In this document: piece by piece, positions 375 to 35,976 of the stretch
How the letters are laid out: each line of letters starts with the position of its first letter
How positions within the stretch are numbered: position 1 is the stretch's first letter
DNA from: a virus
Length of the DNA stretch: 36,022 nucleotides
Virus record (IMG/VR): IMGVR_UViG_3300046648_000130
Location: 1-36,022 of that record
Direction: 5' to 3' (one strand)
Translations under genes and position numbers: made by a program
The notes under the pieces: model-generated
The model's input: only the letters and a program-made list of their open reading frames with translations
The model's database searches: none
Told to the model about the DNA's origin: nothing

Positions 375-1034
375 ATGGCAAAAGTCATCGCTGTACAGAA
401 CGAAAAGGGCGGAGCCGGTAAAACGACTACCTCAACCAACCTCGCAAGCTGCATGGCCGTAGGACATGGCCTTCGCGTCCTACTGGTCGACCATGACCCG
501 CAGAGCTCGTCGTCGAAGTGGGCAGCACGCAGAGCGCGCCCCGAGGACGACGTAGCCGACCCGGGCGTGATCCCTGTTATCTCCATGGGCAAGACGCTAT
601 CGCGCGATCTGCCGGCGCTGTCGAGCAGCTACGACATAGTAATCATCGACGGCCTACCGCAAACCGACGTACTCACAGCAGCAGCCGTAAAGGTGGCCGA
701 TCTGGTAATCGTGCCAATCCAGCCTAGCCCATATGACCTATGGGCGTGCGAAGCCACCCTAAACGTTATCAAGGAGCGTCAGGAGCTGAGCGGAGGGCAA
801 CCGAAAGCGGCGCTCCTCGTCAGCCAAGCCCGGCCAAACACACTCCTCGAGCGCGGAATTCGAGAGCAGCTTGAATCCACCGGGTTTTATGTCTTCGAGG
901 CACAAACCATCCGCCGAGAGGCTTACGCCCAAGGCGTGGCGCAAGGCCTGAGCGTTATGGATCTGCCAGCCACCGACAAGGCGCGCATCGAGTTCGAGGC
1001 AATCACCCTCGAAGTACTGGAGCTTCTGAAATGA
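375..1034 (+). CDS. parA: ParA-family partition ATPase
   Basis: A 219-residue P-loop ATPase that should drive segregation of the plasmid prophage. The N-terminus has the deviant Walker A of the ParA/MinD family (NEKGGAGKTT, residues 9-18, signature lysine 11), followed by VLLVDHDPQ and DIVIIDGLP segments (Walker A-prime and B region). It is short and lacks the N-terminal DNA-binding extension of SopA/P1 ParA, so it is like the small type Ib ParA proteins. The ATG at 375 is chosen because GGAG lies 9 bases upstream and the protein then starts at MAKVIAVQNEK; upstream in-frame starts would read through the iterons. It overlaps the next gene by ATGA, indicating a parAB operon. Iteron cluster A directly upstream is the probable site of autoregulation or partition. 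Confidence 0.93.
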   Translation: MAKVIAVQNEKGGAGKTTTSTNLASCMAVGHGLRVLLVDHDPQSSSSKWAARRARPEDDVADPGVIPVISMGKTLSRDLPALSSSYDIVIIDGLPQTDVLTAAAVKVADLVIVPIQPSPYDLWACEATLNVIKERQELSGGQPKAALLVSQARPNTLLERGIREQLESTGFYVFEAQTIRREAYAQGVAQGLSVMDLPATDKARIEFEAITLEVLELLK

Positions 1035-1339
1035 GCAAAAAACTCGACACCAAAAAACTGTTCGGCGAACCACAGGCCCAGGCACCGCGCGCTGGCGACC
1101 TGCGCGCGATCGAGGCGCTCAGCGACGTGAAGCAGGAGCGTATCTACTACGTCGGCCCTGCCAAGTACGCTCGCGGCATCAAGGAACTCAAAAACATGAG
1201 CGCCGAGAGCGTGGCGCTCAAAGATTTCATTGAGGAGGCCTTCGACGACCTTTTCCGCAAATACCAAGCAGGAGAGGGGCGTTTCAAGGTGACCGATCTG
1301 GAAGAGGTAGGCAGACGCATCAGCAATCTGCCCAAGTAA
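1031..1339 (+). CDS. small ParB-like partition partner (candidate)
   Basis: A 102-residue charged protein translationally coupled to parA by a 4-base ATGA overlap. I recognise no full-length ParB domain. The N-terminus is lysine-rich (MSKKLDTKKLFGE) and the rest is predicted to be mostly helical with acidic and basic stretches. Type Ib ParA proteins are usually paired with small, sequence-diverse DNA-binding partners encoded immediately downstream, and this gene fits that position and size. The natural DNA target would be the iterons at 288-335 and perhaps the four related clusters elsewhere. The function is inferred from context only; an unrelated small protein is possible. Confidence 0.6.
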   Translation: MSKKLDTKKLFGEPQAQAPRAGDLRAIEALSDVKQERIYYVGPAKYARGIKELKNMSAESVALKDFIEEAFDDLFRKYQAGEGRFKVTDLEEVGRRISNLPK

Positions 1340-7560: not shown

Positions 7561-8306
7561 CTATTCCTTTTTCACACCGAGGCGGGCGATCGCTATCTCG
7601 TAGCGTCGCATGGCCTTGCCGGCATTCCACTCGAGAATTTCCCGCTCGGTCGCCTGATAAACGAGCGGCACAACATCGAGGATTACTTCGATGTCGTTTT
7701 CTGAAAGTAGGCCGCCGGTTTGTTTAAAAAATCGTCGATCCGCCCTTGCAACTGCGTCCAGTCCGGAACAGTCAGTGCGGCCAGATCCGGCAACATCAAG
7801 CCGGTGCAATGGGCAGTAATGAACTCTGCTCGCTCCGCAGGCGTGGCGAGCTTTTTCATCGCCTTCGTTGCCTTGAGCGCGGGCATTTCGAGCGTCAGCG
7901 AATCAACAGAACGACCCATGACCTCGATCGGACGCAGGAGCTTGACCACGTTCTGATCCGGCTCTTTTTTCTGACTGGTGATCGCCACCACGCGAGAGGA
8001 ACCGCGCTTTTTCGGCGACTCCTCACCGGCCATAAAGTACGAGGACGGCAGCCGCGATTGCTCATGCACGTATTGCGAGATCGTCACGTAGTCCGGACGC
8101 TTGAGCTGATCGAGCTCCGTCTCGGAAAGGCCGGTGGCCAGACCCGCCAGAGCGAAATACTGCGCCTCCTCATCATCACCAACGTCCTCGAGAACCGCCC
8201 GGTGAGCCGCGTAGAACATGGGCAGGAACTGGATTTCGGCGATCTGCTCACCTTTGTCGCTTTGGATTGGAGAAAGCAGCTTGTGCAGCGGAGGTGTCCA
8301 AGACAT
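7561..8306 (-). CDS. tail assembly chaperone E+E' (-1 frameshift product)
   Basis: Inferred fusion: translation starts at ATG 8306, slips back one base at 7722-7731, and continues to the TAG at 7561, giving about 248 residues. The frame used after the slip reads FKQTGGLLSENDIEVILDVV to ARLGVKKE and has no good start of its own. In P2 the E and E+E' proteins are made in this way and help load tube subunits on the tape measure. The shifted frame ends 9 bases before the tape measure ATG, as expected. Peptide data would be needed to prove the shift. Confidence 0.8.
7683..8306 (-). CDS. E: tail assembly chaperone E (unshifted product)
   Basis: 207 residues in the zero frame, MSWTPPLHKLLSP to FQKTTSK. 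It is longer than P2 gpE (about 91) and contains a central basic stretch (SPKKRGSSRVVA) after a helical first half. The start ATG 8306 has AAGGA 8 bases upstream; the earlier in-frame codon falls in the terminator hairpin. Position between tube and tape measure, plus the slippery site near the 3' end, identify it as the E-type chaperone; sequence similarity alone is weak. Confidence 0.78.
   Translation of the reverse strand: MSWTPPLHKLLSPIQSDKGEQIAEIQFLPMFYAAHRAVLEDVGDDEEAQYFALAGLATGLSETELDQLKRPDYVTISQYVHEQSRLPSSYFMAGEESPKKRGSSRVVAITSQKKEPDQNVVKLLRPIEVMGRSVDSLTLEMPALKATKAMKKLATPAERAEFITAHCTGLMLPDLAALTVPDWTQLQGRIDDFLNKPAAYFQKTTSK
7722..7731 (-). other. -1 ribosomal frameshift site
   Basis: On the minus strand the codons GAT TTT TTA AAC contain two overlapping slippery heptamers, T TTT TTA and T TTA AAC, both of the X XXY YYZ type. 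The -1 frame stays open from here to the tape measure gene. T-rich and TTTAAAC heptamers are established -1 sites in phages and viruses. Confidence 0.85.
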
Positions 8307-8325
8307 GAGGGAATTCCTTACAGGC

Positions 8326-8349
8326 AAAAAAAAGCCGCCCGTAGGCGGC
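8326..8349 (-). terminator. terminator after the tail tube gene
   Basis: On the minus strand GCCGCC-TACG-GGCGGC is followed by eight Ts. TACG is a stable UNCG-type loop. It lies between the tube stop and the ribosome site of gene E, so it probably lowers expression of E, tape measure, U, X and D relative to sheath and tube. Confidence 0.85.
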
Positions 8350-8378
8350 GATCAAAGTGAATGGCCAGCCCTGATCGA

Positions 8379-8885
8379 TCAGGCCATCAGCACGGCGCGG
8401 CGGGCATCCTTGAGGATGTCAACGCCGTTGAGGAAGAACGTTTGTGTACGGGTATCGATGTCGATAACCGGGATCCCGTTCTCGAGGCGGTTATAGGTGC
8501 GGCACGCGATCTCGAGAATGGTCACCGGCTTATCACCCATTTTGAGGGTTTTCTCCTCGAGGCTTTTCAGCTTGCCGCCCACCGTGTGATAGGTGAACCA
8601 AGTGTTACCGTCCTGATCTTGGCCAGCCTCGCGGACGTTCAACAGAATGTCCGCCTCGCCACTCACACCGAGAGCCAGCATGATCGGGGCGCCAGTGCCT
8701 TGCAGCGTCAACTTGGCAGTCAAGACCTTGGCACCCTTGGCCATTTCTTCGGCGATGAAGCGGCCCCCCTTCATTTCCTCCATGTCCATTTCGACTTTCG
8801 GCGGATCGAACTCGTCAATGGTATGCATCAACGGCAGGCCTTGCAGAGTGGCCGCGATGGCCTGTCTTACGCGGTTCGTAAACAT
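8379..8885 (-). CDS. FII: major tail tube protein (P2 FII-like)
   Basis: 168 residues, near P2 FII (172). It begins MFTNRVRQAIAATLQGLPL and carries family patterns such as DEFDPPKVEMDMEEMKGG, GRFIAEEMAKGAKVL and CRTYNRLENG. It forms the rigid inner tube of the contractile tail. The start codon overlaps the sheath stop (TAATG). The pair sheath-tube is followed by a terminator, consistent with high, separately tuned expression. Confidence 0.94.
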   Translation of the reverse strand: MFTNRVRQAIAATLQGLPLMHTIDEFDPPKVEMDMEEMKGGRFIAEEMAKGAKVLTAKLTLQGTGAPIMLALGVSGEADILLNVREAGQDQDGNTWFTYHTVGGKLKSLEEKTLKMGDKPVTILEIACRTYNRLENGIPVIDIDTRTQTFFLNGVDILKDARRAVLMA

Positions 8886-16793: not shown

Positions 16794-17233
16794 TTTGCCG
16801 CCTTGCTAGCCGCGGTCTTTTTCGCTTCCAGCGCCGTCACCTGCTCGGCCAACGCCTTTTTGCTCACTTCCAGCGCCTCGAGCTCGCTGGCCAGAGTCTC
16901 TTTGCCCGATTCCAGCGCCTCGAGCTCACCGGTCACGACCTGCTTTTTCAGCTCCAGCGCGTCGACCTCCTCGAGCAACGTCGAATGCTGCTCCGCCAGC
17001 GCGTCGAATTCGGCTTTCGCTTCCGACAGTCCAGCACCTGCATCGTCATTCCCCTGCGCGGCACCGCCGCGATAGCGTTCGATTTCCTCGGCAGTTGCAT
17101 CGCGAGCAGTGGCCGGCAGCATTCCCGCGCGCTCTGCGCGCGTCACTTCCAGCGGCGTACCCTCCGCCACCAATTTTCCTTTGTGCCAAATGTCACTCAG
17201 GACGATAACCAGATAACTCAAAATGAGTTCCAT
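16790..17233 (-). CDS. coiled-coil head protein (lambda FI position)
   Basis: 147 residues; lambda FI is 132. The N-terminus (ILSYLVIVLSDIWHKGKLV) is a small beta domain with VAEGTPLEVTRAERAGML, similar in pattern to the 59-aa protein at 10051. Residues about 60-140 are a strong heptad coiled coil built of LEALE/ALE repeats (LEEVDALELKKQVVTGELEA). It lies between capsid and FII-like genes, where lambda has the packaging factor FI. A scaffold or packaging role is inferred; the coiled coil is seen. Confidence 0.7.
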   Translation of the reverse strand: MELILSYLVIVLSDIWHKGKLVAEGTPLEVTRAERAGMLPATARDATAEEIERYRGGAAQGNDDAGAGLSEAKAEFDALAEQHSTLLEEVDALELKKQVVTGELEALESGKETLASELEALEVSKKALAEQVTALEAKKTAASKAAK

Positions 17234-17261
17234 GAACGGACTCCAGAATCAGAATTAGAAA

Positions 17262-17280
17262 GGGGGCTAAAAGCCCCCTA
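17262..17280 (-). terminator. probable terminator after the capsid gene
   Basis: AGGGGGCT (17262-17269) and AGCCCCCT (17273-17280) form an 8-bp stem with a 3-base loop. On the minus strand a T-rich but interrupted tract (TTCTAATTCT) follows. It would reduce transcription beyond the capsid gene. Confidence 0.65.
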
Positions 17281-17295
17281 AGGCTGCCCGCTTGC

Positions 17296-19149
17296 TTATG
17301 CGGCTTTCTTGCTGACGCAGAAGGAGGACAGGTTGCGGAAACCGGCGTCGCAGTCTTGAAACACACGCACGATCAAGCCGTCGCTGCCGGCCAGTGCGTA
17401 TGGGTCTGGCTTGAGATCCAGTGCGCCCCACATCGCGATCATTGCTTGCGACCAGTCACCATGCACCCAGGTATCCGCCGGCACTTGGTTCGATGCCATG
17501 GAGCCGTAACCGTTGATCTGGTTATCGCGCCAGATCTTGGTGCTATCAGAGCCGTCCGGATCTTCCTTGGTCTTTTTCGCGTAACCGCGCTGTACAACGC
17601 TGGTCAGGTACTTCATTGCGCTTACGTCGGCGTTGAAGGTGGCCACCTTCGTTTCCATGTCGACCAGATCGCCGAACGTGATACCGCCTGCGCCGTAGGT
17701 CAGACCCGGCACACCCGGCTGATTGAGCAGGCCCAGCGGCTGCGAGTCTTCACCGGTGCCGATCAGCATTGCCAGATCCAGAGCAACAGCGATGCCGTTG
17801 ATAAGATCCTGAACAATCATGTTTTCGACGCTCAACGAGGACTGCTTACGCAGTTTTCGCGATACCGGAATCGCACCGGCGATCGTCTTCGGTTTGAGAC
17901 CGAGAGTGGTCAGATCCATGTCCGACAGCGGGACGTTTGCGTTCTCCGCGATCCACGAGAAGTTCGCACCGCCGACCTTTTTCGGAATGTCCACGTCACC
18001 TTGCAGACCCGAGAGAACCTTGGCGCCGAGGGCGATCATCACCGCCTTATTGCGCAGCATGTCGACGAACAGGTCGCTACGCAGGTCGGTAGCAATCAGC
18101 TCCTGACCCTTGCCCGCCGCCGTGGACATGCCGCGCGCGGCCAGCAGGTCATGCGGCACATAGATGCCGCGCGCTTCCTTGCCCATGGCGTCACCGATAG
18201 CGATCGACACCTCGCGCTCGAAACCGGCGTCCTTCCAATCGCCATTTGCCGCAGCATTCAAGGCGCGCATCAGCGAATACTTCTGCACCTCCTGATTGCT
18301 CAGGCCCAAGCCGCGCGCCGATACGTCGATTTTGAATTGCGGCAGATCGCCCTTGGCGCGAACCTCAGGCCCCGGCGCAGTCGCCTCAGGCTTCATACCG
18401 TCGAGGATCTTGGCGCGAACCTGATCGACGCTCAGACCGCCAGTGATCGACGGCATAGCGAGATCATTCACGTTGTGACGCGCGCACAGCGTCAGGATGT
18501 CAGCGGCGCGCTGATTGGCAGCGGCTTCGATCGAGGCCGCATCAGGTACAGCATTGTTTTCAGGAGGCATCAGATTTCCTCGAACGGTTGTGTCCGGTTT
18601 TTCAATTTCAGGGAGAGAGCGGCCTACACCCACAGTCGGGTCAGCCGGAATCGAAACGCTCGAAACCTCGTAAGGCTCCCAGCGCGTGACGCGGTAAAAC
18701 TTGACATCACCCTCGGTACGCTCGAGCTCCATCGTGATCGGGTCATAGCCGACCGAAATGTTCTGGCGGATACCGTCCTTGATGTCCTGCCAGATCTCCT
18801 CGGCGCCGGGGTTTTTCGAGAGGCGCACCCGAGCGCGAAGCTTTTTGTCAGCGTCGAGCCATGCATCCTCGATCACGCCGATCTGCGTCCAGCGATCGTG
18901 CATGTCGAGGAATGGCGCGCCGGATTTCAGCCGGGCCAAATTGACCGACGTTGCGGAGTGATCGAGGATCTCCATGCCGAACCAACGGCGGACGGGGTAC
19001 TCGCTCGAGACCGCAACCTCGACGGTGCGCTTTTCTTCGTCCAGCGTGGACAGGTCGACCAGCATCGACCGATGCAGCGGTTTGCCTTCCAACTGGCGCA
19101 ACAAAATCTCCGGCGACGAATCGCTCGCCGGATTGTTTGGTGGGGGCAT
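17296..19149 (-). CDS. prohead protease - major capsid protein fusion
   Basis: 617 residues combining two head genes. Residues 1 to about 185 match HK97-type prohead protease (S78): FLDMHDRWTQIG with candidate catalytic His84, and NISVGYDP with candidate Ser132. Residues about 270-617 match the HK97-fold major capsid (YVPHDLLAARG; VGGANFSWIAENANVPLSD; AMIAMWGALDLKPDPYA). The linker about 195-270 may act as scaffold. The protease should cut the capsid from the fusion and remove the delta-like linker. An internal ATG with good ribosome site at 18570 may give a second product. The first codon overlaps the portal stop (TAATG). Confidence 0.93.
   Translation of the reverse strand: MPPPNNPASDSSPEILLRQLEGKPLHRSMLVDLSTLDEEKRTVEVAVSSEYPVRRWFGMEILDHSATSVNLARLKSGAPFLDMHDRWTQIGVIEDAWLDADKKLRARVRLSKNPGAEEIWQDIKDGIRQNISVGYDPITMELERTEGDVKFYRVTRWEPYEVSSVSIPADPTVGVGRSLPEIEKPDTTVRGNLMPPENNAVPDAASIEAAANQRAADILTLCARHNVNDLAMPSITGGLSVDQVRAKILDGMKPEATAPGPEVRAKGDLPQFKIDVSARGLGLSNQEVQKYSLMRALNAAANGDWKDAGFEREVSIAIGDAMGKEARGIYVPHDLLAARGMSTAAGKGQELIATDLRSDLFVDMLRNKAVMIALGAKVLSGLQGDVDIPKKVGGANFSWIAENANVPLSDMDLTTLGLKPKTIAGAIPVSRKLRKQSSLSVENMIVQDLINGIAVALDLAMLIGTGEDSQPLGLLNQPGVPGLTYGAGGITFGDLVDMETKVATFNADVSAMKYLTSVVQRGYAKKTKEDPDGSDSTKIWRDNQINGYGSMASNQVPADTWVHGDWSQAMIAMWGALDLKPDPYALAGSDGLIVRVFQDCDAGFRNLSSFCVSKKAA
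18568..18581 (-). promoter_or_regulatory. internal ribosome site and start in the protease-capsid gene
   Basis: GAGGAA at 18581-18576 lies five bases before an in-frame ATG at 18570 (residue 194). The protein from here begins MPPENNAVPDAASIE, similar to the full-length start MPPPNNPASDSSPEI. It could make a 424-residue scaffold-capsid product free of protease, as lambda does with C/Nu3. Confidence 0.6.
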
Positions 19150-21161: not shown

Positions 21162-23255
21162 TTACCCCTTGTTGACTTTGAAGCGCGATCGCTTGACCGG
21201 CGCAGGAGGCGGCGGCACTGGAACGGCTGTAACAGCAGAAGGCGCCGGCGGCGCTGCATCCTTGGGCGCATCGCCCGGCGCATCACCCTCGGCAGCCTCA
21301 CCCCGGGAGGCAGTTTTTAGCTGCGCAAGGGTTAAAGCGCCTGTCTTGAGGCGCTGCAACTTGCTGCGCAAGGCCATGATGTATTGCATCGCCTCGCAGT
21401 CGAGGTAATGGTTTTCGCCGACCTGAGCAAAGCGCCCCTCTGCCTCGCGCCACTCCTCGCCTACCAACTGCTTGCAATAGTCGTCGGTGACTTGCTGGTG
21501 AACGATCCACCACCCGGGCCGGGTGTCGGGACGACCAAACCGGCTATGCACCCAGCGCTTGGCCAGCGGCGAATCAAATGCCCACCTGGCATCCCCTCGC
21601 TTGCGAACCTTGCCCTGCTTGCTGACCTCGACGAGCTCCTTTTTGAAGGGCTTGTCGAGGCGATCACGACCACGCAGCGCAACGGCCTTGCCTTTGTGCT
21701 CATTGATAAAGCGATAAACCTGATCGTCTCGATAACCAATGTCGATCCCGGTTTCGCTGATCGGCACACCGTCGTATTCGGTATCGATCAGATCACCGAG
21801 CAGATCCCACACTTCATCCTGATCGGTATCACCCCAAAGCTCGCCGTGCTCGATCAAGGCCGAGGCAAGCCCCGCATACCATGCGCGAATGACGTAGACG
21901 AGCCGGTTTTTCTGAACGTCGATCGTGCAGAAAATCTTTTTCGGCGCGAGGACGAGCTCGCCCTCTGCATATCCCCAGCGCATACCCTTGATCTCCTCCC
22001 AGCTCGGCGCGTCGCCGGCTTCGGCGTAGCACTCACCGAAACCGGTATTCAAAACGCCTTGCATGGTTGCCGGATCGCCCGAGAGCTGAGCACTGAGCAG
22101 TTTTTTCGCGAGGAAGCCGAAAGACTTTTTCGCGGCGAAGCTGAGGAGACCCGAGATCCAGATCGAGTAATGAGTGAACCCGGCAGTCTCTGCGACGCCC
22201 TCGATCTTGCCGGCCTTGGTGATTGACTCGCCCGGCGCTACAGCGACGCCCCGGGCATTCATCCATTGCCGCCACTTGTCCTCGATCATGCAGCCCTGAC
22301 TTGGGCAAACAAGCCGAGCGTTCTGCTCAGCCTCATCCGGTGAACACTCCTCGGCGGAGCCCTTGCCTGGCCACCAAAGCAGGTCATGCCACGGGATGAA
22401 ATACTCTCCGCAATCCGGGCAAGGGACTGCCCATTCATGCCGCGTTCCGGCCTGCCACAACTGCCAGACCTTCGAGCGAATCGCAGTAGCCTTGCCCTTC
22501 TGCCAGTGCATCAGCCCTGTTTTTTCATGGGGCCGTTTGCTGACCTTGCCGGCGGTTGGCGTCGCCGTATAACCGACTTTCGAATCGACGTATGCGTCGC
22601 CCCGGGCTTCGATGATCTCCATCGTGTCGCCCTCGCTGGTGTTAACCACGCGATCGACCTCGTCCACCAGAATCAAGCCAGCGGAGTCGGCGGCGAGCTC
22701 AGTCGGCGAACCGGCCCAAGCAAACCGGAGCTTTGTGCCGGCGAGCCATTTCACGAACGTTGACGAGCCAGCCGCGTCGAACTTTTTCAGCAGCGAGGCG
22801 GCGCCCTTAATCATGTCCATGAATTTCGGAATGATCGTGTTTTTCAGGAGCGGCGCCGTTGGCGCGACATACATGATCGGCGTCGGGTCTTCATCCAAGC
22901 GGTGACCGCAGATGTTTTCCATCGTCACCGACTTGCCCATCTGCGTTCCCATCACGAACGTGACGCGACTAAAGCAAGGCTGAGCAAATGCCCACGCCAC
23001 CGGGCGCATGTACGGGTTTGCATCTGGATTGAACGGCCCCGGGATTGGCGAGGACGGGGGCATAACACGATTATCTCGCGCCCATTCGTCAGCCGTCCTC
23101 GGGGGCGGCGCCTTCACCATCGTCGCTGCCGTCGATACGGAGTTGGCCAACTTGAGCAACGAGCTCAGATGCGCGAGATTCGAGGCGGTCGGCTGTAGCA
23201 GCTCGGACACGCCGCGTTTCTTCAAATATTCGAGCTCGGCAGAGTGCAGGGTCAT
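21162..23255 (-). CDS. terminase large subunit (lambda gpA family)
   Basis: 697 residues, lambda gpA being 641. The ATPase part has GTQMGKS (103-109), the variant Walker A of this family, and LILVDEVDRV (DE at 198-199). A zinc-like CPDC...CPSQGC segment follows, then the nuclease region (FCTIDVQKNRLVYVIRAWYA; GIDIGYRDDQVYRFINEHKG). It cuts concatemers at cos and pumps DNA. The start is uncertain: ATG 23255 overlaps the small subunit by 167 bases, while ATG 23120 would start just before the conserved RTADEWARDN but lacks a clear ribosome site. Confidence 0.94.
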   Translation of the reverse strand: MTLHSAELEYLKKRGVSELLQPTASNLAHLSSLLKLANSVSTAATMVKAPPPRTADEWARDNRVMPPSSPIPGPFNPDANPYMRPVAWAFAQPCFSRVTFVMGTQMGKSVTMENICGHRLDEDPTPIMYVAPTAPLLKNTIIPKFMDMIKGAASLLKKFDAAGSSTFVKWLAGTKLRFAWAGSPTELAADSAGLILVDEVDRVVNTSEGDTMEIIEARGDAYVDSKVGYTATPTAGKVSKRPHEKTGLMHWQKGKATAIRSKVWQLWQAGTRHEWAVPCPDCGEYFIPWHDLLWWPGKGSAEECSPDEAEQNARLVCPSQGCMIEDKWRQWMNARGVAVAPGESITKAGKIEGVAETAGFTHYSIWISGLLSFAAKKSFGFLAKKLLSAQLSGDPATMQGVLNTGFGECYAEAGDAPSWEEIKGMRWGYAEGELVLAPKKIFCTIDVQKNRLVYVIRAWYAGLASALIEHGELWGDTDQDEVWDLLGDLIDTEYDGVPISETGIDIGYRDDQVYRFINEHKGKAVALRGRDRLDKPFKKELVEVSKQGKVRKRGDARWAFDSPLAKRWVHSRFGRPDTRPGWWIVHQQVTDDYCKQLVGEEWREAEGRFAQVGENHYLDCEAMQYIMALRSKLQRLKTGALTLAQLKTASRGEAAEGDAPGDAPKDAAPPAPSAVTAVPVPPPPAPVKRSRFKVNKG

Positions 23256-23667
23256 TCATCACCGCCATTTCACTTGCCAACCGACTCGGAAGCGCATCGA
23301 GCTGCGTTGCGAACACCGCCGCAATAGTTGTGTGGAAGAACGCGACCGCCGACACCGGCACCAGCCGACCGAGCGCCACGTCGATTTCGATCTGTAGCTT
23401 TTCGCGGCGGGCGCGCTTCAAGGCGCGATCCTCGGCGGATGCGGTACCGGATCCGGTGCCGCCCTCCTCGTCATCTTCGCCGCCAACCTCCCGGCGAACT
23501 TCCCGGGCCATAAGCCACTCGATCGCGGCTTGGCTGTCGATCTTGAGCGGAGTGCCTTTGCCTCCTCCGCCAGCCGTGGGCAAACCATCGGCGATCAGAT
23601 TGGTCACCCACCGCTCCGACTTTCCGATCAGCTCGGCGAGTTCCTTCTTGCTGATTATCTTGCCCAT
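23089..23667 (-). CDS. terminase small subunit (lambda Nu1-like)
   Basis: 192 residues from ATG 23667, lambda Nu1 being 181. The N-terminus MGKIISKKELAELIGKSERW is the winged-helix DNA-binding domain of Nu1-type small subunits (VTNLIADGLPTAGG completes it). A linker and helical oligomerisation and large-subunit-binding region follow. A TTG at 23697 could extend it by 10 residues but would run into the iterons. It would bind cos DNA, probably in the gene-free stretch directly upstream. Confidence 0.88.
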   Translation of the reverse strand: MGKIISKKELAELIGKSERWVTNLIADGLPTAGGGGKGTPLKIDSQAAIEWLMAREVRREVGGEDDEEGGTGSGTASAEDRALKRARREKLQIEIDVALGRLVPVSAVAFFHTTIAAVFATQLDALPSRLASEMAVMNDPALCRARIFEETRRVRAATADRLESRASELVAQVGQLRIDGSDDGEGAAPEDG

Positions 23668-23686
23668 GGAGAAAGGACTCGAAACG

Positions 23687-23755
23687 GAAAAACGCAAAGA
23701 CGCAAAGACGTTTTTAGTCCTTTGCGTTTTTGCGTTTTTGCGCTTGTGCGTAAAC
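23687..23755. repeat. iteron cluster B (upstream of terminase)
   Basis: Left side: AAACGCAAAGACGCAAAGAC (minus-strand copies). Right side: TTTGCGTTTTTGCGTTTTTG and GCGCTTGTGCG (plus-strand copies). The two sets face each other around 23711-23719, with CGCAAAGAC and GTCCTTTGCG nearly complementary. Units match those of clusters A, C, D and E. It is the largest cluster. Confidence 0.75.
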
Positions 23756-23759
23756 AGGT

Positions 23760-23944
23760 TGAGGCCCCGCCGCGTCTGGCCTCACGGCCAAGTGGGTCAC
23801 AGCTTGCGGGAGGCCTCGAGAAAGGAAGAAAGGACTCGAAAAACAAAATCCAAAACCGCGCGAAGCCCGCGAGTTCCGAACCCGTGACGGGCAGGGGGCC
23901 GAGGGAGTACCTAAAATGCAGGGGGCCTGCACCGGCGTGGTGCG
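23760..23944. other. gene-free region, candidate cos site
   Basis: No credible gene. It lies directly upstream of the terminase genes, where lambda-like phages with gpA-type terminase have cos. It is G+C-rich, with a direct repeat GCAGGGGGCC at 23891-23900 and 23918-23927, and a palindrome TGCAGG-GGG-CCTGCA at 23917-23931. These could be terminase-binding or nicking sites. I do not see the lambda cosN sequence itself, so exact ends cannot be given. Confidence 0.45.
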
Positions 23945-26081: not shown

Positions 26082-26107
26082 TGGTTCGGTCTTGTGACAG
26101 AATGGAT

Positions 26108-26136
26108 AATTTAGCTTTTTACCCTTACTTTTGCAA
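26108..26136 (-). promoter_or_regulatory. possible leftward late promoter
   Basis: On the minus strand TTGCAA (26136-26131) and TAAATT (26113-26108) are 17 bases apart in a very A+T-rich stretch (26095-26165). Each box matches the sigma-70 consensus at 4 of 6. It would start a transcript upstream of the two terminators and the holin gene. It is weak evidence by sequence alone. Confidence 0.35.
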
Positions 26137-26161: not shown

Positions 26162-26198
26162 GCGTTTTTGCGCATATGCGCTTTTACGTTTTTACGCC
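26162..26198. repeat. iteron cluster C (upstream of the late region)
   Basis: GCGTTTTTGCGC (26162-26173), the perfect palindrome GCGCATATGCGC (26170-26181), and GCGCTTTTACGTTTTTACGC (26178-26197). It closely matches cluster A (ATATGCGCTTTTACGTTTTT against ATTTGCGCTTTTACGTTTTT). It abuts the stop codon of the 26199 gene. Confidence 0.75.
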
Positions 26199-26510
26199 TT
26201 AGACGCTCTGACTGTCTTCTGCCCGCATGGCAGAAAGAAACTCAAGGCATGCGATCAGCGTCGACGCCCCGATCGTGCAGGAGCCTACAGGCGTGTCCGG
26301 ATACCACTGCACCAACCATATGCTATTCAGCTCGATCGCCTTCGCGCGCTCCTCCTCACTCACCCACTGCACCCGATCATAATCGCCATCCTCAACAGCC
26401 CTATCAGCCGTGTAGTAATACGATGCATGGTCATTGAATGAGACGCTCAGGCTCGAGAACTCACCACCCATCAATCCCTTCAATAATGACTCTACGGCTC
26501 GAGCGTCCAT
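26199..26510 (-). CDS. hypothetical protein, 103 aa
   Basis: Start ATG 26510 is chosen because GGGAG lies five bases upstream and earlier in-frame starts run into iteron cluster D. The protein begins MDARAVESLLKGLMGGEFSS, has a polar middle with SYYYTADRAVEDGDYDRVQW, and ends DSQSV. Mixed alpha/beta, soluble. No family recognised. Last gene of the early leftward operon, with iteron clusters at both its ends. Confidence 0.65.
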   Translation of the reverse strand: MDARAVESLLKGLMGGEFSSLSVSFNDHASYYYTADRAVEDGDYDRVQWVSEEERAKAIELNSIWLVQWYPDTPVGSCTIGASTLIACLEFLSAMRAEDSQSV

Positions 26511-26523
26511 CGCAACTCCCAAT

Positions 26524-26564
26524 AAGCGCATTTTGCGCAAAAACGTTTTTGCGCAAATGCGCTT
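26524..26564. repeat. iteron cluster D: long near-perfect palindrome
   Basis: A perfect 26-bp palindrome spans 26532-26557 (centre CG at 26544-26545, arms TTTGCGCAAAAAC and GTTTTTGCGCAAA). Beyond it the arms continue to 26524 and 26564 with a single one-base indel (AAGCGCAT against ATGCGCTT). Units ACGTTTTTGCG match clusters A and C. It lies between two genes of the early operon. Confidence 0.85.
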
Positions 26565-26887
26565 TAGCGGCTTGCCCGCATCCAACCGGAGACAGCACCC
26601 TCGAGCGTCGAGAAGCCCGGCTCCTGCTCATGGCACCCGGCACAATACCAACCCCACAACGATTCCCGCTGAAAGAACCGAGGCTGTGCGGACTTCTTGC
26701 AGCCGTGAGGCGGAAGCGTCTGATCGTTCACAAGCCGCCACGTCGACCGCGCGTAAGCAACTGACAGACTTGCAGCGCCGCGAGCCCGGCAGCTCGAGCA
26801 GGCCACAAGCGTTCGATCCGTGGCGGTATCCTTGCGCTCAACAGGCTCCTCGCCGCAATGGATGCAAACCGGGAATTCCTGAATCAT
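26564..26887 (-). CDS. zinc-finger protein, 107 aa
   Basis: Two CxxC pairs near the N-terminus (CIHCGEEP and CSSCRARG) and one in the second half (WYCAGCHEQE), plus a lone Cys, suggest one or two zinc ribbons. The pattern resembles small phage zinc-ribbon proteins such as Lar-type restriction-alleviation proteins, but the match is loose. It begins two bases after the candidate antiterminator stop, in the early operon. Confidence 0.72.
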   Translation of the reverse strand: MIQEFPVCIHCGEEPVERKDTATDRTLVACSSCRARGAASLSVAYARSTWRLVNDQTLPPHGCKKSAQPRFFQRESLWGWYCAGCHEQEPGFSTLEGAVSGWMRASR

Positions 26888-26889
26888 CC

Positions 26890-27753
26890 CTAAATCCCCC
26901 GATCGACCAAAACGAACTCATACCCGTCTAAGCGCTTGAGCAGATCCCGCAAGGCTTCATCATCAAGGCGCCAGAGCTCGTCCTCGCAGAGCTGCCAGCG
27001 CTTTGCCCAATGCTGATCCCAATTTGATTCCGAGACGCCCAGCAGCTCGCGCAGGCGGAACGCCGGGTGTACGGTTTTGCCGCTGTTCGCCAGCGAACGG
27101 AAATTCTGTACGGCGAGGTGCGCGAGAGCCTGCATAGACTTTCGAGTCTTCGCCTGAATCTTGCCGAGCTGAGGCTCCACACGCTGCCACAGCGCGACAA
27201 CGAGCCCAGCCTCGTCGCTCCACTCTTTCGAGTCGCCGTAGCCGTAGCGCAGCCACTGGCCGTATTCCGTGGCCATGGCGCCGACAGTCTTCACGACGTG
27301 CGCGTCCTGAAAAGCAAATGGGCCGAGGGGTATTGCGCCTTTTTTCTTTGGCCGCGTCTCGCTGGCAATCATCCGGGTAGTACCTCGAGCCAAGCTGGCC
27401 ACGTAGTCAGCAGGCAAGCGCCCATCCTCGCCGCCTTCGGTTTGGCAGACAGCCAAATCCTCGAGCAAGCGCCGAGGGAACGAGTCCCGGGTATTTTCAA
27501 TCGTGTAAGGCGCAACGTAGGTGCCATCGTCTTCGCGGTAAAACTGCGGGCCGAGGAACGACCCCAGCACCAACGCGCGAGCCATGCCGCGCTCATGCGC
27601 TTCATACTGACGACGTGGCTTGCGGTGACGTAGTTGTGGGGCCTTTGGTGCCTGGGATCCCTCCACCACCTCAACGTATGTCGATTCAGGCAGGGAGGGC
27701 AGGGGGCGAGCTACAGGCTTGCGCCCGAGGCTCAATATTTGATTGGCTTCCAT
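26890..27753 (-). CDS. candidate late-gene antiterminator (Q-like position)
   Basis: 287 residues from ATG 27753 (GGGAG about 8 bases upstream; an in-frame start at 27807 is less good). The N-terminal ~75 residues are Pro/Arg-rich and probably flexible. The C-terminal ~110 residues hold a helical region, LAHLAVQNFRSLANSGKTV, followed by an HTH-like stretch (FRLRELLGVSESNWDQHWAK). I cannot name a family with certainty. Position late in the early operon, DNA-binding look, and the tandem terminators in front of the lysis genes suggest a Q-type antiterminator or late activator. A replication or recombination function is possible. Confidence 0.5.
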   Translation of the reverse strand: MEANQILSLGRKPVARPLPSLPESTYVEVVEGSQAPKAPQLRHRKPRRQYEAHERGMARALVLGSFLGPQFYREDDGTYVAPYTIENTRDSFPRRLLEDLAVCQTEGGEDGRLPADYVASLARGTTRMIASETRPKKKGAIPLGPFAFQDAHVVKTVGAMATEYGQWLRYGYGDSKEWSDEAGLVVALWQRVEPQLGKIQAKTRKSMQALAHLAVQNFRSLANSGKTVHPAFRLRELLGVSESNWDQHWAKRWQLCEDELWRLDDEALRDLLKRLDGYEFVLVDRGI

Positions 27754-27971
27754 GTCGCTTTGCTCCCATGGATCTCGAAAAGGGTTTGGCAGCCAATGCA
27801 GCGGCATGCCATTGGCTCCGCCTCAAGTCGATCAGGAGCAATCGGATCCCCACACGACACACAGTCTTCAAACAGCGGAACAACGACCACGGCCTTTAAA
27901 ACTCGCTTGGCCGCGAATTCGTCTGCGATCTTGAGTTGCATGTCGACCATACGATCACAAGCATCGGGCAT
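27732..27971 (-). CDS. DksA/TraR-family zinc-finger protein
   Basis: 79 residues. After a helical N-terminus (MPDACDRMVDMQLKIADEFA) comes the family zinc finger CVSCGDPIAPDRL with CRCIGCQTLFE, i.e. CxxCG then CxxCQ. Small phage DksA/TraR proteins bind RNA polymerase through the secondary channel and change promoter choice. GGGAGG lies 6 bases upstream of ATG 27971. Overlaps both neighbours. Confidence 0.88.
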   Translation of the reverse strand: MPDACDRMVDMQLKIADEFAAKRVLKAVVVVPLFEDCVSCGDPIAPDRLEAEPMACRCIGCQTLFEIHGSKATWKPIKY

Positions 27972-30228: not shown

Positions 30229-30259
30229 GCGTTTTTGCGTCTTTGCGTTTTTGCGCAAG
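30229..30259. repeat. iteron cluster E (upstream of repA)
   Basis: GCGTTTTTGCGT (30229-30240), TTTGCGTTTTTGCGC (30242-30256). The two GCGTTTTTGCG units are separated by CT and TTT. It ends 8 bases before the repA start, so it can control repA translation or transcription, or mark the origin or partition region. Confidence 0.75.
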
Positions 30260-30266
30260 GGACGAA

Positions 30267-33200
30267 ATGACACACCATAACGAGAAACAAGACGAGTTCA
30301 AGCTCAGGGACTTTTACGAGGAGCGCTTCGGCTCCCGGCCAGAGTCGCTCGTCGACTACTGCTTCAACGAGATCTCCGACATTGCTTTTCAAGTCGGGAT
30401 CAAGTGGGAATCGATCGCGGGCTCGGTTCACTACAGCGACGGCAAGGGCTCCAAATACCGGGGCAAGATCGACACCGTCGAAAAGAAACACGCCAAGAAG
30501 GTGATGGTCTGGGGCTCCCTCAAACGCACCGATAGCAAGCTCGGCTCTTTTGAATTCCCGACCCTCACGTTCAGCAACAACGTTGCCTCGATCGATGCGG
30601 CCGGCTGGTCTGGCCTTTCTGCTCTGTTTGAACTGTACAAACGCCAAGGTGGCCAGATCACCGACGCGAAGCATGAGCAGTGGAAAAAGGAGCAGGAAGC
30701 CAAGAGTGCGGATCGAGCGCGTAAACGTGCCGAAGCTGATCGCATCGAGGCCGAGATCCTGGCCCGCATCCACGCCGAGCGCGAAGCCTATGAACAGGTC
30801 TGGTTCCGAGGTGGGGCGGTTGAGTTCAAATATCTCGACCCCCAAACCAAGCTTGAGGCGACCGACACCGTTGAACTGATCGGCAGCGAGGACGGCACTG
30901 CACCTTACTTGCAACGCAAGAAAATCAGCGACATCGCGCAATTTGTCGAATTAAAGCGTATGCGTGATCGTCACGGCATCTTTACTGCGGTTCCCCTGCT
31001 CGATATCGACGGCGAGTTTCAGGGCCTCCAGCGCCTGTACGAAAAGAAGAAGTACCAAGGCACCGGCGTCAAAATGGACGGCCTGCATTGCGTGATCGGC
31101 GATATCGAAAACGCAAAGCGCGTCTATGCCGTCGAAGGTTTTGCCACTGGCGCGAGTGTCTTTCTTGCTGAGCATTCAGCACAAAAACAAGCTGCCGTGA
31201 TTATCACGGTCAGCGTTGGTAACCTCTCGAAAGTCCTGCGCAAGTACCACCAGCGTTTCCCGCAACTGCGCATTATCAACGCTGCCGACGACGACCAATT
31301 TACCCGCGCCGGTAACGCCGGGCGCCTCGCCGCCCTCGATCTGCATAAAGAGTTTGGCCATTGGGCCGTTCTGCCGGATTTCAGCGAGCTCGAAGCCGAG
31401 CAGCGCAACACGGATAAGCCTACCGACTGGAACGACTACCACTGCCTTTTCGGTCTCAAAGCCACCTTGAAAAGCCTGCGATCGCGGGAAGTTTTCAAAG
31501 CGTCGACGGACTATTTCGAGTACCGCCTACAGCGGATCTCCATCAGCGGCGAACACGCCGAGAAAGCTGCCCTCGACGCGATCGGCGCCGGGATGTTGCT
31601 TGTACCGATCAAGTTCAGCACGAAAGAGATCGTCGAGCGCGTGCTCGAGGAGCTGCCGGTGGGTTACATGTTCTCGCACTTCAAAATCAAGCGGCGCGCG
31701 ATCTGGCTGGCCAAACTCAAATTGAACGAGGTGCAGGAGCTGCGCGGTTTCTCTGCCGCAGCCTTGGCAAAACCAAACGTCAAATATTTGAAGATCCCAG
31801 GCATCCGCGCCAGCCACGGCGGCACGCTGCTGCCAGATCACATTGCGGATATGGTCGAATCGATGGACGGGTTTGTCATCGTTCGCGCGCCCATGGGCTC
31901 GGGCAAAACCGAAAAGCTGATCGCCCCCGTCATGCAGCACTCGAACCGGGCCGCGTACATCGCCCACCGCATCAGCCTGCTCGACGATGCCGCGACCCGC
32001 TTGAATATCCAGCATTACCAGCAAGTGACCGCGATCGAAATGCTCGACGTTTCGCACATGGCTTGCTGCGTCAACTCGCTGACCAAATCGCGTTTCTACA
32101 ACCGAGAGGAACGCAGTTGGTTCACCACCATCGACACGCTTTGCATCGACGAGGCAAGTCAGGTAATCCGCCACACGACTACCGGCCCGGTTGACTCTCC
32201 TGTTCGGGTTATGGACGCACTCCTCGAGGCGATGGCCAGCGCCAAACGTGTTCTGCTGTGCGACGCCGACGCAAACGATTCTGTTATCCGGCTGTGCGAG
32301 GAAGCGGCCCCGGGTAAACAGATCACAATCATCGAAGTAACTGGCGCGATGGATCACATAACCGTCAAACACTCCGACCTCGACAGCGTCTGGCAAAAAG
32401 CGCTCGATCTGATCCTCGCCGGCAAGCGTGTACTCGTAGCCAATGACTCCGCCGAATCGGCAAAGAAGCTGGCCGCAATGGTCAACGAGAAACGGCCAGA
32501 AACCAAGCTGCTGCTAATCCACCGCGATTCCAAGTCAGATCCAGCCGTCGACGCGTTCCTCGCGGATCCATGCGGCGAGGCGGTTCACTATGACGCCTTG
32601 ATTTATTCGCCTGCGATTTCCTCAGGCGTGTCTATGACCATCCCGCATTTTCAGCACCATATTGGTATTTTCAGCGGCAACACGATCGGCCCGAGCGATG
32701 CAGTCCAGATGCTCCGCCGCGACCGTACCGCCCGCGATTATCTGATCGGCATCGGCCACAGCAACAGCCAGCGCGAGACGGATCGCGAGGCCATTTACCG
32801 TGGTTGGCTTGCCGCCGATGTCATCAGTTGCGAGTTTGAGGAAACGACCACCGAGATCCTGCTACGCCGCCAAAAAACTGCATTCGACGAGCTTTATCTG
32901 TCTGCCACAGCCAACGAAAACCGGGCAAAGAATAATTTCGCCAATAACCTGCTGCTCATGTTGCACGCCGACCGCTATAAGGTTGAGCGGGTAGCCACAG
33001 ACGACATGCTCGCGCGGGCTTCCCGCAAAAACCGCAAGGTCGCGGGGCAGTTGGTTTTTGGGCGACGCATGGAGCTGATCGAAAGCGTCAAGACTCCCAA
33101 CGAGGAGGAGTTTGCCAAGCTTGACCGCATGGAAGTGCGGAGCGAGGAGGAGGCTGCGCAGATCGATCGCTACCAGATCGAGCGCCAGCTCGGCGTTGAG

Positions 33201-34022
33201 CAGATCACTGCCGACGACGTAGCGTTTTATGACGATCGCGGGATCTCAAAGGTTATCGGCCTTGAGCTGCTGCAATCGACAGAGGAGCAGGCTCGCACTT
33301 ACGACAAGGCCCAGCGCAAGGCGCGCGTAGTCCTTTCCAAAACACGGTTTAAAACGGCTGCACGCGGTTTCCTGCTGGATACCTTCGCTGTGCTGGGGAT
33401 CGACCCGCAAACGGGCGCTGGCGAGTTCTCCGTGGACTCCTGCGGTCAGGTTCTCGACAAAATTCTGAGCAGCCAGGAATCAGCAGAGCTTTACAACTCT
33501 CTCAAGCTTGGCGCGCTGGTCAATTTCGGGCGCAAACGCGGCTGTGCAACAACCCTCGTTAAATCGATTCTGATCCGCCTCGGCTTGGGCGTGGATAAGC
33601 GTAAGTCCAACGGGAAGTTTCTTTACCAGATCAACCCGGAGCACTGGGGTTTCATGATCCGCTACGTGAACAACCGCGCCGCGATCGGTATTCACTCGCT
33701 GACCACCCACGAACACGCAGCCACGCCGCACACGCCAAAGCCCGGTATTGACGCTGCTGAGGCTGCGCCAGCGCCTGACAGGGACACTTTGCAGGGTGAG
33801 TGTATAGCGTCAGATGAAAAGTATCCCTTGGAGCTGCGCGAACGCCTATACGCTGCCGCTCGTCGCAATTTCACCCCTCTCGGTTTCACGTTGAGCGAGA
33901 TAGTGGAAGGCTTGCGGCCCGAAGTGGCGGTGGGGTTTGCTCAGGAGGGGGCAGATCCTCGAACCATTGGCTTCATGCTTCGTTACGCACAACAGCTACT
34001 ACAAGCCAACCACTCGGATTAA
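30267..34022 (+). CDS. repA: replication protein RepA (TOPRIM primase + helicase)
   Basis: 1251 residues, as large as N15 RepA (about 1324). TOPRIM: YAVEGFATGASV (VEG at about 288-290) and INAADDDQF (DDD at 341-343). Helicase: APMGSGKTEKL (Walker A, about 541-548) and LCIDEASQ (DE at 628-629), as in the viral origin-binding-helicase family. It would initiate, prime and unwind; in N15 the origin lies inside repA. ATG 30267 is chosen (AAGGGA 6-8 bases upstream); an earlier start at 30177 would translate the iterons. The C-terminal ~300 residues are unassigned. Confidence 0.94.
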   Translation: MTHHNEKQDEFKLRDFYEERFGSRPESLVDYCFNEISDIAFQVGIKWESIAGSVHYSDGKGSKYRGKIDTVEKKHAKKVMVWGSLKRTDSKLGSFEFPTLTFSNNVASIDAAGWSGLSALFELYKRQGGQITDAKHEQWKKEQEAKSADRARKRAEADRIEAEILARIHAEREAYEQVWFRGGAVEFKYLDPQTKLEATDTVELIGSEDGTAPYLQRKKISDIAQFVELKRMRDRHGIFTAVPLLDIDGEFQGLQRLYEKKKYQGTGVKMDGLHCVIGDIENAKRVYAVEGFATGASVFLAEHSAQKQAAVIITVSVGNLSKVLRKYHQRFPQLRIINAADDDQFTRAGNAGRLAALDLHKEFGHWAVLPDFSELEAEQRNTDKPTDWNDYHCLFGLKATLKSLRSREVFKASTDYFEYRLQRISISGEHAEKAALDAIGAGMLLVPIKFSTKEIVERVLEELPVGYMFSHFKIKRRAIWLAKLKLNEVQELRGFSAAALAKPNVKYLKIPGIRASHGGTLLPDHIADMVESMDGFVIVRAPMGSGKTEKLIAPVMQHSNRAAYIAHRISLLDDAATRLNIQHYQQVTAIEMLDVSHMACCVNSLTKSRFYNREERSWFTTIDTLCIDEASQVIRHTTTGPVDSPVRVMDALLEAMASAKRVLLCDADANDSVIRLCEEAAPGKQITIIEVTGAMDHITVKHSDLDSVWQKALDLILAGKRVLVANDSAESAKKLAAMVNEKRPETKLLLIHRDSKSDPAVDAFLADPCGEAVHYDALIYSPAISSGVSMTIPHFQHHIGIFSGNTIGPSDAVQMLRRDRTARDYLIGIGHSNSQRETDREAIYRGWLAADVISCEFEETTTEILLRRQKTAFDELYLSATANENRAKNNFANNLLLMLHADRYKVERVATDDMLARASRKNRKVAGQLVFGRRMELIESVKTPNEEEFAKLDRMEVRSEEEAAQIDRYQIERQLGVEQITADDVAFYDDRGISKVIGLELLQSTEEQARTYDKAQRKARVVLSKTRFKTAARGFLLDTFAVLGIDPQTGAGEFSVDSCGQVLDKILSSQESAELYNSLKLGALVNFGRKRGCATTLVKSILIRLGLGVDKRKSNGKFLYQINPEHWGFMIRYVNNRAAIGIHSLTTHEHAATPHTPKPGIDAAEAAPAPDRDTLQGECIASDEKYPLELRERLYAAARRNFTPLGFTLSEIVEGLRPEVAVGFAQEGADPRTIGFMLRYAQQLLQANHSD

Positions 34023-34082: not shown

Positions 34083-34343
34083 ATGCAACACATGGAACAA
34101 ATCGAACAAGCGGCACGCCGTTTGTACAGGATCCAAGCCAACTTGGAGTTGGTCGCGAAGGCTGGGCCGGAGGCCGGTCTCGCGAATGTCATGGAAGTAA
34201 ACGATCTGATTCGGGAGGAGGTGGCGAGAGTGCTGATCCTTCTGGATCAGGCGGGGCAGGTTCAGGCAATGCCGGCAGCGATCGCGCCGGCATTGAAGGA
34301 GAAAGGGGAGGTACTGGCGTTTAGGCCTTCGCCAACTGCGTGA
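34083..34343 (+). CDS. small helical protein downstream of repA, 86 aa
   Basis: GGAGGGCGAGGA precedes ATG 34083. The product (MQHMEQIEQAARRLYRIQAN onward) is helical and has LIREEVARVLILLDQAG in the middle. Its end overlaps the protelomerase end by 23 bases in convergent orientation. No family recognised. It is expressed with repA. Confidence 0.68.
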   Translation: MQHMEQIEQAARRLYRIQANLELVAKAGPEAGLANVMEVNDLIREEVARVLILLDQAGQVQAMPAAIAPALKEKGEVLAFRPSPTA

Positions 34344-35976
34344 ACGCCTCGCGACTTGCGGCCATCCGGTCGGCGCCCTCGCCTCGCGCCACCTCCACGC
34401 CGTTGAGAGTTAGCACAGCAACCCACAGGCCGTCATCGGCCCGGTGAGTAACCAAATGCGGTTTAGCGTTGGCCACCTCGCGTGGTATCTCGGCAGCAAT
34501 GGTATTAAGCGGACGAACAGGCGCAGATAGCGCCTCCGCTGCCAGCGCGAGATATTCTTGAATGATCGGGCGATAGCTCCCGACGTTCACACTGATAGAG
34601 CGCTGAATGATCTTAGCCGCCGGCTCAGCTTTAACGGTGGCCTTTACCCAAGAATGAATTTTCTCCATGGCTTCGCGCCCCTGAATGCTGGGGTGCGAAT
34701 CAAGGGCTTGCAGCGCCTCGAGGCGGCTGAGAGTCTTTTCCGCTGGCGCTGAGCCCTCGGAAGGCTCGGTGTAATCCACCTTGAATTGCTTGTAACTCTC
34801 CTGCGTGTCCATGTCTTCGTGACCGAGCATTTCCCGCCAGAAAACCTCCTCATTCACCTTGCGCCAGCGCTTGTCGTGTTTGAAGTGCGCCTCGAAAACC
34901 ACGCGCGCCCAAATGGCTCGGGTGTCCTTGAAAACCCGGCTTTCATCTTTGAAAACCCGCTTTGTCAGCGTGTTGAGTGTCTTGGCCGTGCGACGGTTTA
35001 CCTCGGTGTTGCTTTTGTCCTGCAGATCGATAACCGCCGGCAGTTCGCGCAAGCGCTTGATGGCCTCGAGCACGATATCGGCGCTGAGCAGGGTGTAAAT
35101 CCTGTAGCTCGAGCTGTAGTCGACGCCCATGCGCTGCTTGGCCTGACCGCTGAACTCGAGTTCAAACTCGCCGACCTTTTTGAACCGGCCTTGCTTGAGA
35201 ACTTCAATCGCTCGGCGCCCGGTGGCCATCGCGACCCCCAGGGCGAGATAGGAGTAGTACGGTGACGATCCGTCGCCGCGATCCTGATACTGAGTAAGCA
35301 GCTCGCTCGCGGTTTTGACCAGCCAGTGATAGTTGATCTCGATAGTGTTGGTTGCCTTGTGCTCGAGCACCTCGGCAGCTTTTTCGCCAAGCTGGTCACG
35401 CGTCACCATCGGCAGCGACAAGTGACGCATGATTTCGTGATCGAGTTTCATCTCGCGAATTTCTTTATAGGCGGCATCGTCACCGGCCCGGCGGATATCG
35501 TTTTTCAGATCGCGATGCGCGATGCGCAACGTGGTGATGTCGTCCATTGCCGCCATGGCGAGAAGCTGCTCAGCGTAGCGGGGGTGATGCTTGGCCATGC
35601 GGCGGCATGACTCCTCGATCGCGTGATGGCGCCAGTTTTTGGCGGTGATCGCCTTGCGGATGTCAGTCAGATACCGGCGGTAAGTGGTGGCCTTGAGCTT
35701 GTCGTCGTCCTTCTTGCGCCGATCCTCATAGAGCTTCGTCCGGACGCGATGCGCCAGCCGTCCGAGGCGCTTGGTTTTCTCCGCGCGGCTCAATTCTTCG
35801 TTGTTGTCGATCAACTCGATCTGCTCGAGCAGATTCTTAATCAAAACGCCGAGCTCGACTTTCTGCCGGGTAGCGCCGCCAACGTTGCCGAAGGAGGTGC
35901 GCTCCTGTTCACCGAGCGGATCTTTCGATCGAGGCTTGCTGACCGGACTGGCCTTCTTTGCTTCTTGCTTTTTCAT
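34321..35976 (-). CDS. protelomerase (hairpin telomere resolvase)
   Basis: 551 residues; N15 TelN is about 631 and the KO2 TelK about 640. Catalytic residues of the tyrosine-recombinase-like core appear with TelK spacing: Arg254 (ATGRRAIEV), Lys280 (SGQAKQR), Lys350 and Arg353 (KDTRAIWAR), His386 (LGHEDMD), Tyr395 (TQESYKQF). The intervals 353-386 (33) and 386-395 (9) equal those of TelK (383-416-425). It cuts the tel palindrome and makes closed hairpin ends. AAGGAGG lies 7 bases before the ATG. The N-terminal ~220 residues are helical and basic. A plain integrase is unlikely. Confidence 0.95.
   Translation of the reverse strand: MKKQEAKKASPVSKPRSKDPLGEQERTSFGNVGGATRQKVELGVLIKNLLEQIELIDNNEELSRAEKTKRLGRLAHRVRTKLYEDRRKKDDDKLKATTYRRYLTDIRKAITAKNWRHHAIEESCRRMAKHHPRYAEQLLAMAAMDDITTLRIAHRDLKNDIRRAGDDAAYKEIREMKLDHEIMRHLSLPMVTRDQLGEKAAEVLEHKATNTIEINYHWLVKTASELLTQYQDRGDGSSPYYSYLALGVAMATGRRAIEVLKQGRFKKVGEFELEFSGQAKQRMGVDYSSSYRIYTLLSADIVLEAIKRLRELPAVIDLQDKSNTEVNRRTAKTLNTLTKRVFKDESRVFKDTRAIWARVVFEAHFKHDKRWRKVNEEVFWREMLGHEDMDTQESYKQFKVDYTEPSEGSAPAEKTLSRLEALQALDSHPSIQGREAMEKIHSWVKATVKAEPAAKIIQRSISVNVGSYRPIIQEYLALAAEALSAPVRPLNTIAAEIPREVANAKPHLVTHRADDGLWVAVLTLNGVEVARGEGADRMAASREAFTQLAKA

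Follow-up and report, generated by a model that had tools for sequence, protein, structure and literature searches.

A long palindrome in a telomere phage lies in one of five dispersed 8-bp-periodic arrays that are candidate ParB-bound sites of a type Ib partition system

The window, that is, the whole stretch of DNA analysed (36,022 nt, IMG/VR record IMGVR_UViG_3300046648_000130), belongs to a linear-plasmid (telomere) phage, which encodes ParA, a small ParB, TerS, a Q-like protein, a cI-like repressor, RepA and a protelomerase. Near the left end, parA (375–1034, plus strand) encodes a short ParA ATPase of 219 aa. Read from the ATG at 375, this protein has a match to phrog_164 that begins only at position 219 of the 500 in the profile, and it lacks the N-terminal HTH extension, as is typical of type Ib. 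The same type is indicated by the position of parB (1031–1339, plus strand), which overlaps the end of parA (1034) and lies directly downstream of it, and by a repeat array at the par promoter. The product of parB is a small ribbon-helix-helix-like protein of 102 aa, far from the long ParB of the N15 type (SopB, 342 aa). At the other end of the window, repA (30268–34022, plus strand) encodes an N15-type replication protein and telN (34321–35976, minus strand) encodes the protelomerase. The minus strand also carries terS for the terminase small subunit (23089–23697 as the listed ORF, with the true start probably near 23668), the gene for the Q-like antitermination protein (26890–27807) and a Lar-like ORF (26564–26887). 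A candidate late promoter, TTGCAA-17-TAAATT (26100–26131, minus strand), was read by eye and is conserved in relatives; it scores under the cut-off of the promoter scanner, and a terminator comes after it. The TTGCAAAAGTAA core, which is followed by a -10-like box, and the GC-rich terminator are conserved in most relatives, and this strongly conserved element and its equivalents in relatives are probably the Q-dependent late promoter.

The palindrome under study stands where the early leftward operon ends. It has the Lar-like gene on one side and a small ORF on the other, with the Q-like gene upstream of it and the probable late promoter downstream. The sequence-only reading had described it as a 26-bp perfect and 41-bp near-perfect palindrome within the early operon, with one indel outside the perfect arms, and this description was borne out. 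The arms at 26532–26544 and 26545–26557 (13 + 13) form a perfect 26-bp palindrome, and a DNA self-search gave a 95% match across 41 bp between 26524–26564 and its own reverse complement. No longer perfect palindrome exists anywhere in the window, and the palindrome is far beyond chance (13-bp arms were reached in 0 of 30 first-order Markov simulations of the window). The self-match search with the palindrome also matched 293–331.

Analysis of periodicity revealed that the repeated unit is a tetramer box, RCGY, plus four AT-rich bases, recurring every 8 bp. Runs of at least three period-8 RCGY boxes were found in the window only in five arrays, S1 to S5 (six runs, as S2 gives two), at 289–332, 23692–23751 (two runs in one register), 26162–26197, 26535–26562 and 30229–30256, while 0.015 such runs were expected on average from 200 second-order Markov simulations. 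Additionally, a search for GCGTTTTTGCG that tolerated one mismatch gave 12 matches in the window against 2 expected. Over-represented 8-mers in the window did not by themselves reveal the motif, because boxes and spacers are degenerate, while the period-8 tests did. Each array contains four or more boxes, and none is assigned to a strand. S1 (289–332, six boxes) overlaps the probable parA promoter, S2 (23684–23751) lies upstream of terS, S3 (26162–26206) lies just upstream of the probable late promoter, and S5 (30229–30256), which consists of direct repeats only, lies 12 bp ahead of the start codon of repA. S4 (26526–26570) is the array that contains the palindrome. It follows the Lar-like ORF immediately, overlapping its stop codon, and has the boxes GCGC, GCGC, ACGT, GCGC, GCGC and GCGG, with RCGY cores at 26526, 26535, 26543, 26551 and 26559. 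Its register is 8 bp except for a single 9-bp step, which is what the sequence-only reading had seen as the indel, and it appears palindromic because boxes stand in both orientations. Together S3 and S4 flank the small ORF that separates the late promoter from the Lar-like gene. In one relative (G001) all that is left of this ORF is a short remnant, and a single array occupies its place; S3 and S4 may derive from one array of an ancestor that was split or duplicated around an inserted gene. A further short motif, (G)AAAGGAC, recurs at 121–240 (left end and parA region) and around terS at 23670–23690 and 23820–23850, and is found in relatives and VP882 as well.

Conservation was examined in 16 IMG/VR loci (15 records) recruited by protelomerase, which were scanned with a weight matrix trained solely on the repA-upstream arrays. 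In relatives whose sequence includes the regions concerned, the matrix recovered the arrays at parA, at terS and near lar and the late promoter (scores of about 30–46 against shuffle maxima of 16–25, with a few weaker matches at 20–25). The check in related phages proposed by the sequence-only reading had a divided outcome: in the three nearest relatives, G001–G003, the octad array is kept and the perfect palindrome is lost (longest perfect arm 5). The palindrome as the conserved unit was rejected on this basis, and the comparison indicates that palindromy is incidental and that the octad array is what is conserved. In G002 and G003 no array stands right at the late promoter, and the S4 array is kept about 400 bp away from it. 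VP882, phiHAP-1 and MAR (a partial record) also have period-8 arrays together with a short ParA and a small ParB-like protein, and in VP882 and phiHAP-1, scanned as complete genomes, the arrays are at places equivalent to those in the window. The scan of N15, which has long SopA and SopB, gave nothing above its own shuffles except one match at 22.7. Box letters vary by clade (RCGY, GTAC, GTTC or GTGC). The octad arrays are unannotated in the VP882, phiHAP-1 and MAR records examined, and literature searches limited to openly available papers returned no description of them, which is weak evidence of novelty. A phage-plasmid of the same family from a clinical isolate, Pseudomonas aeruginosa pPHPALO418 (CP075795), carries the same kind of parAB and array; its record is filed as a circular plasmid.

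To relate the arrays to ParB, we collected 55 loci encoding relatives of the 102-aa protein (45 distinct proteins). The array upstream of parA could be read in each of them except one in which the contig is cut (L099), and in most it runs into a -10-like sequence, as autorepression would need. Ribbon-helix-helix proteins read DNA through alternating strand residues, and the array letters match the predicted DNA-contacting strand of ParB. With motif class rules that were fixed after the sequences had been inspected, the strand [EG]R[IV]Y[FY] pairs with RCGY boxes (12 of 45 distinct ParBs), KQLK with GTAC (15 of 45) and KKIPL with GTTC (9 of 45), while the strands KR[LIV]P, KPLR and RRIP pair with GTGC, GTAC or mixed boxes (9 of 45), KR[LIV]P mostly with GTGC or mixed GTAC/GTGC. 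Among the 45 proteins, adjusted mutual information with site class is highest for columns 39, 37 and 40, and the whole strand ranks third, not first, among 90 contiguous ParB windows; this covariation is confounded by phylogeny, as most motif classes are single clades and so do not amount to many independent cases.

Support for a ribbon-helix-helix fold of ParB is moderate. Pfam Antitox_RHH is matched by 38 of 43 ParBs and RHH_3 by 10 of 43, with weak E-values (best 1.9e-5 and 1.3e-4, respectively). A first AlphaFold model (11 sequences) was too weak (pLDDT 54), and the monomer model (pLDDT 77) predicts two helices after the strand region, where this fold would have them. Foldseek with the model obtained no significant fold match, Arc repressor reached only Z 3.1 in a second look, and the ParB profile obtained only chance matches among PDB sequences.

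The best explanation, to which we give a probability of about 0.8, is that S4 is one of five dispersed octad arrays serving as candidate ParB-bound centromere or operator sites of a type Ib partition system. Among the options raised by the sequence-only reading, a ParB-type site is the one best supported, as the same 8-bp-periodic motif recurs ahead of parAB and at three more loci and appears to covary with ParB. Each ribbon-helix-helix ParB dimer would read one box and its AT-rich spacer through the beta-strand, adjacent dimers, facing either way, would line up with the 8-bp register, and a head-to-head pair of boxes would give the look of a palindrome. We infer that the arrays bound by ParB would form the centromere that ParA moves while the prophage is a linear plasmid. 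Given where the arrays sit, at the parA promoter, ahead of repA and of terS and next to the late promoter, ParB bound there probably has the further effect of adjusting partition, replication and the lytic genes. The array at terS may serve packaging too.

Two known systems offer the best reading by analogy, pSM19035 as a mechanistic and N15 as a positional model. The delta/omega system of pSM19035 (ParA and a ribbon-helix-helix ParB) has six parS sites of 7–10 heptads WATCACW each, which lie over promoters and double as centromere, and at least four contiguous repeats are required for full ParA activation (PMC9499535). All five window arrays reach that number of boxes. The window resembles it in having several arrays of short repeats, direct and inverted, at promoters of partition and copy-control genes, and a small ParB that may have the same fold. 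It differs in that its units are octads (4-bp box and four AT-rich bases), not heptads, that it is a linear phage-plasmid of Gram-negative hosts, and that arrays also stand at terS and the late promoter. The centromere sites of N15 are dispersed in its genome, and the window phage is likewise a telomere phage with several separate candidate centromere sites instead of one. However, the Sop proteins of N15 are long (387 aa for SopA, 342 aa for SopB) and its separate sites are single inverted repeats with arms of GTGCGACC, whereas the window phage has a short ParA, a ParB of about 102 aa and octad runs, in S5 with direct repeats only. The title of Ravin 2008 (cited in PMC11652158) states that the N15 sop system facilitates late gene expression. 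The ribbon-helix-helix ParG of TP228 parFGH is comparable to the ParB studied here, but that system has one continuous centromere adjoining the par genes (review PMC5016525), while the window arrays are dispersed. The type of parA and small parB-like gene is shared with VP882, phiHAP-1 and VHML-type telomere phages, with GTAC/GTGC-like boxes in the VP882/phiHAP-1 type versus RCGY in the window.

The arrays could also be operators only, with ParB as a global repressor or activator of phage promoters, the parA array alone as centromere and S4 without a role in segregation. Every array flanks important gene starts, S3 abuts the likely late promoter, and the ParB of pSM19035 regulates promoters of partition and copy-number genes via parS (PMC9499535). 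However, multiple sites also act as centromere in pSM19035 (six; PMC9499535) and N15 (four, IR1–IR4; PMC7205306), and S4 lies 3' of a gene and persists in G002 and G003 at a distance from their late promoter, so that we consider this explanation possible but doubtful. It is improbable that another phage DNA-binding protein, such as the cI-like repressor, a CII-like activator or the terminase small subunit, binds the arrays. Sites for cos and terminase usually lie near terS, which one array adjoins, repressors too have dispersed operators, and CB operators are annotated in N15; but no high-scoring array is present between the cI-like and CII-like genes of the window, where cI operators should be, motif class tracks the ParB strand residues, and the parA-upstream arrays are present in the loci recruited by ParB. 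The perfect inverted repeat directly after a stop codon would suit a cruciform or a transcription structure (attenuator or terminator), which we regard as very unlikely: the arms abut without a loop, S4 has no T-run terminator, S5 is purely direct repeats, and the loss of the palindrome in G001–G003 despite conserved octads argues against the cruciform considered by the sequence-only reading. The chance that S4 is an alternative protelomerase resolution site, as that reading also suggested, is negligible. The palindrome length is similar and the genome encodes a protelomerase, but the S4 palindrome is lost in G001–G003, S4 is not a long palindrome with the conserved core adjoining telN, as a protelomerase target (telRL/tos) would be, and the real targets in relatives differ in core and lie between telN and parA.

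These targets are palindromes of 60–80 bp centred between CCATTCTATAC and GTATAGAATGG (also given as TTCTATAC and GTATAGAA), and the widespread TTCTATAC/GTATAGAA-type core, even allowing up to 3 mismatches, has zero matches in the window. In the clade of the window phage (G002), the target arms end in CCATTATATAC and GTATATAATGG around one base (CCATTATATAC-A-GTATATAATGG). The telomere-resolution palindromes were located at 8372 in G005, 17167 in G008, 7854 in G009, 8550 in G010, 1530 in G013, 24185 in G014, 18740 in G015 and near 1578 in G002. At either end the window contig stops just before the telomere target, as it should in a prophage assembled from linear DNA with hairpin ends. One contig of 31,688 bases (IMGVR_UViG_2713897325_000002; L014/L009, G006) forms, over its whole length, a perfect inverted repeat about the telomere palindrome (centre 15844), and is either a head-to-head dimer or the product of assembly through the hairpin; some Pseudomonas plasmid records of 75–79 kb with two parB places may resemble it. 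A second repeated motif, TGGGTGTATA/TATACACCCA, flanks the telomere palindrome in 9–13 copies (G008 16929–17391, G009 7745–8084, G010 8320–8781), possibly as protelomerase- or replication-related sites.

Beyond the window, the dispersed arrays suggest a more general proposal, for which we put the odds at about even: telomere phages like VP882 and phiHAP-1, including Pseudomonas elements, would have a centromere of dispersed octads that a small ribbon-helix-helix ParB reads, this ParB would link segregation with replication, packaging and late transcription, and a strand code (ERxYF-RCGY, KQLK-GTAC, KKIPL-GTTC and KRxP-GTGC-type) would make co-resident phages compatible. If true, this would fill in the centromere that is missing for linear plasmid prophages of the VP882/phiHAP-1 class and provide natural specificity variants of ribbon-helix-helix ParB proteins that are open to residue swaps. 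It would also suggest the way in which a model quorum-sensing phage connects partition to its lysis-lysogeny and copy-number circuits.
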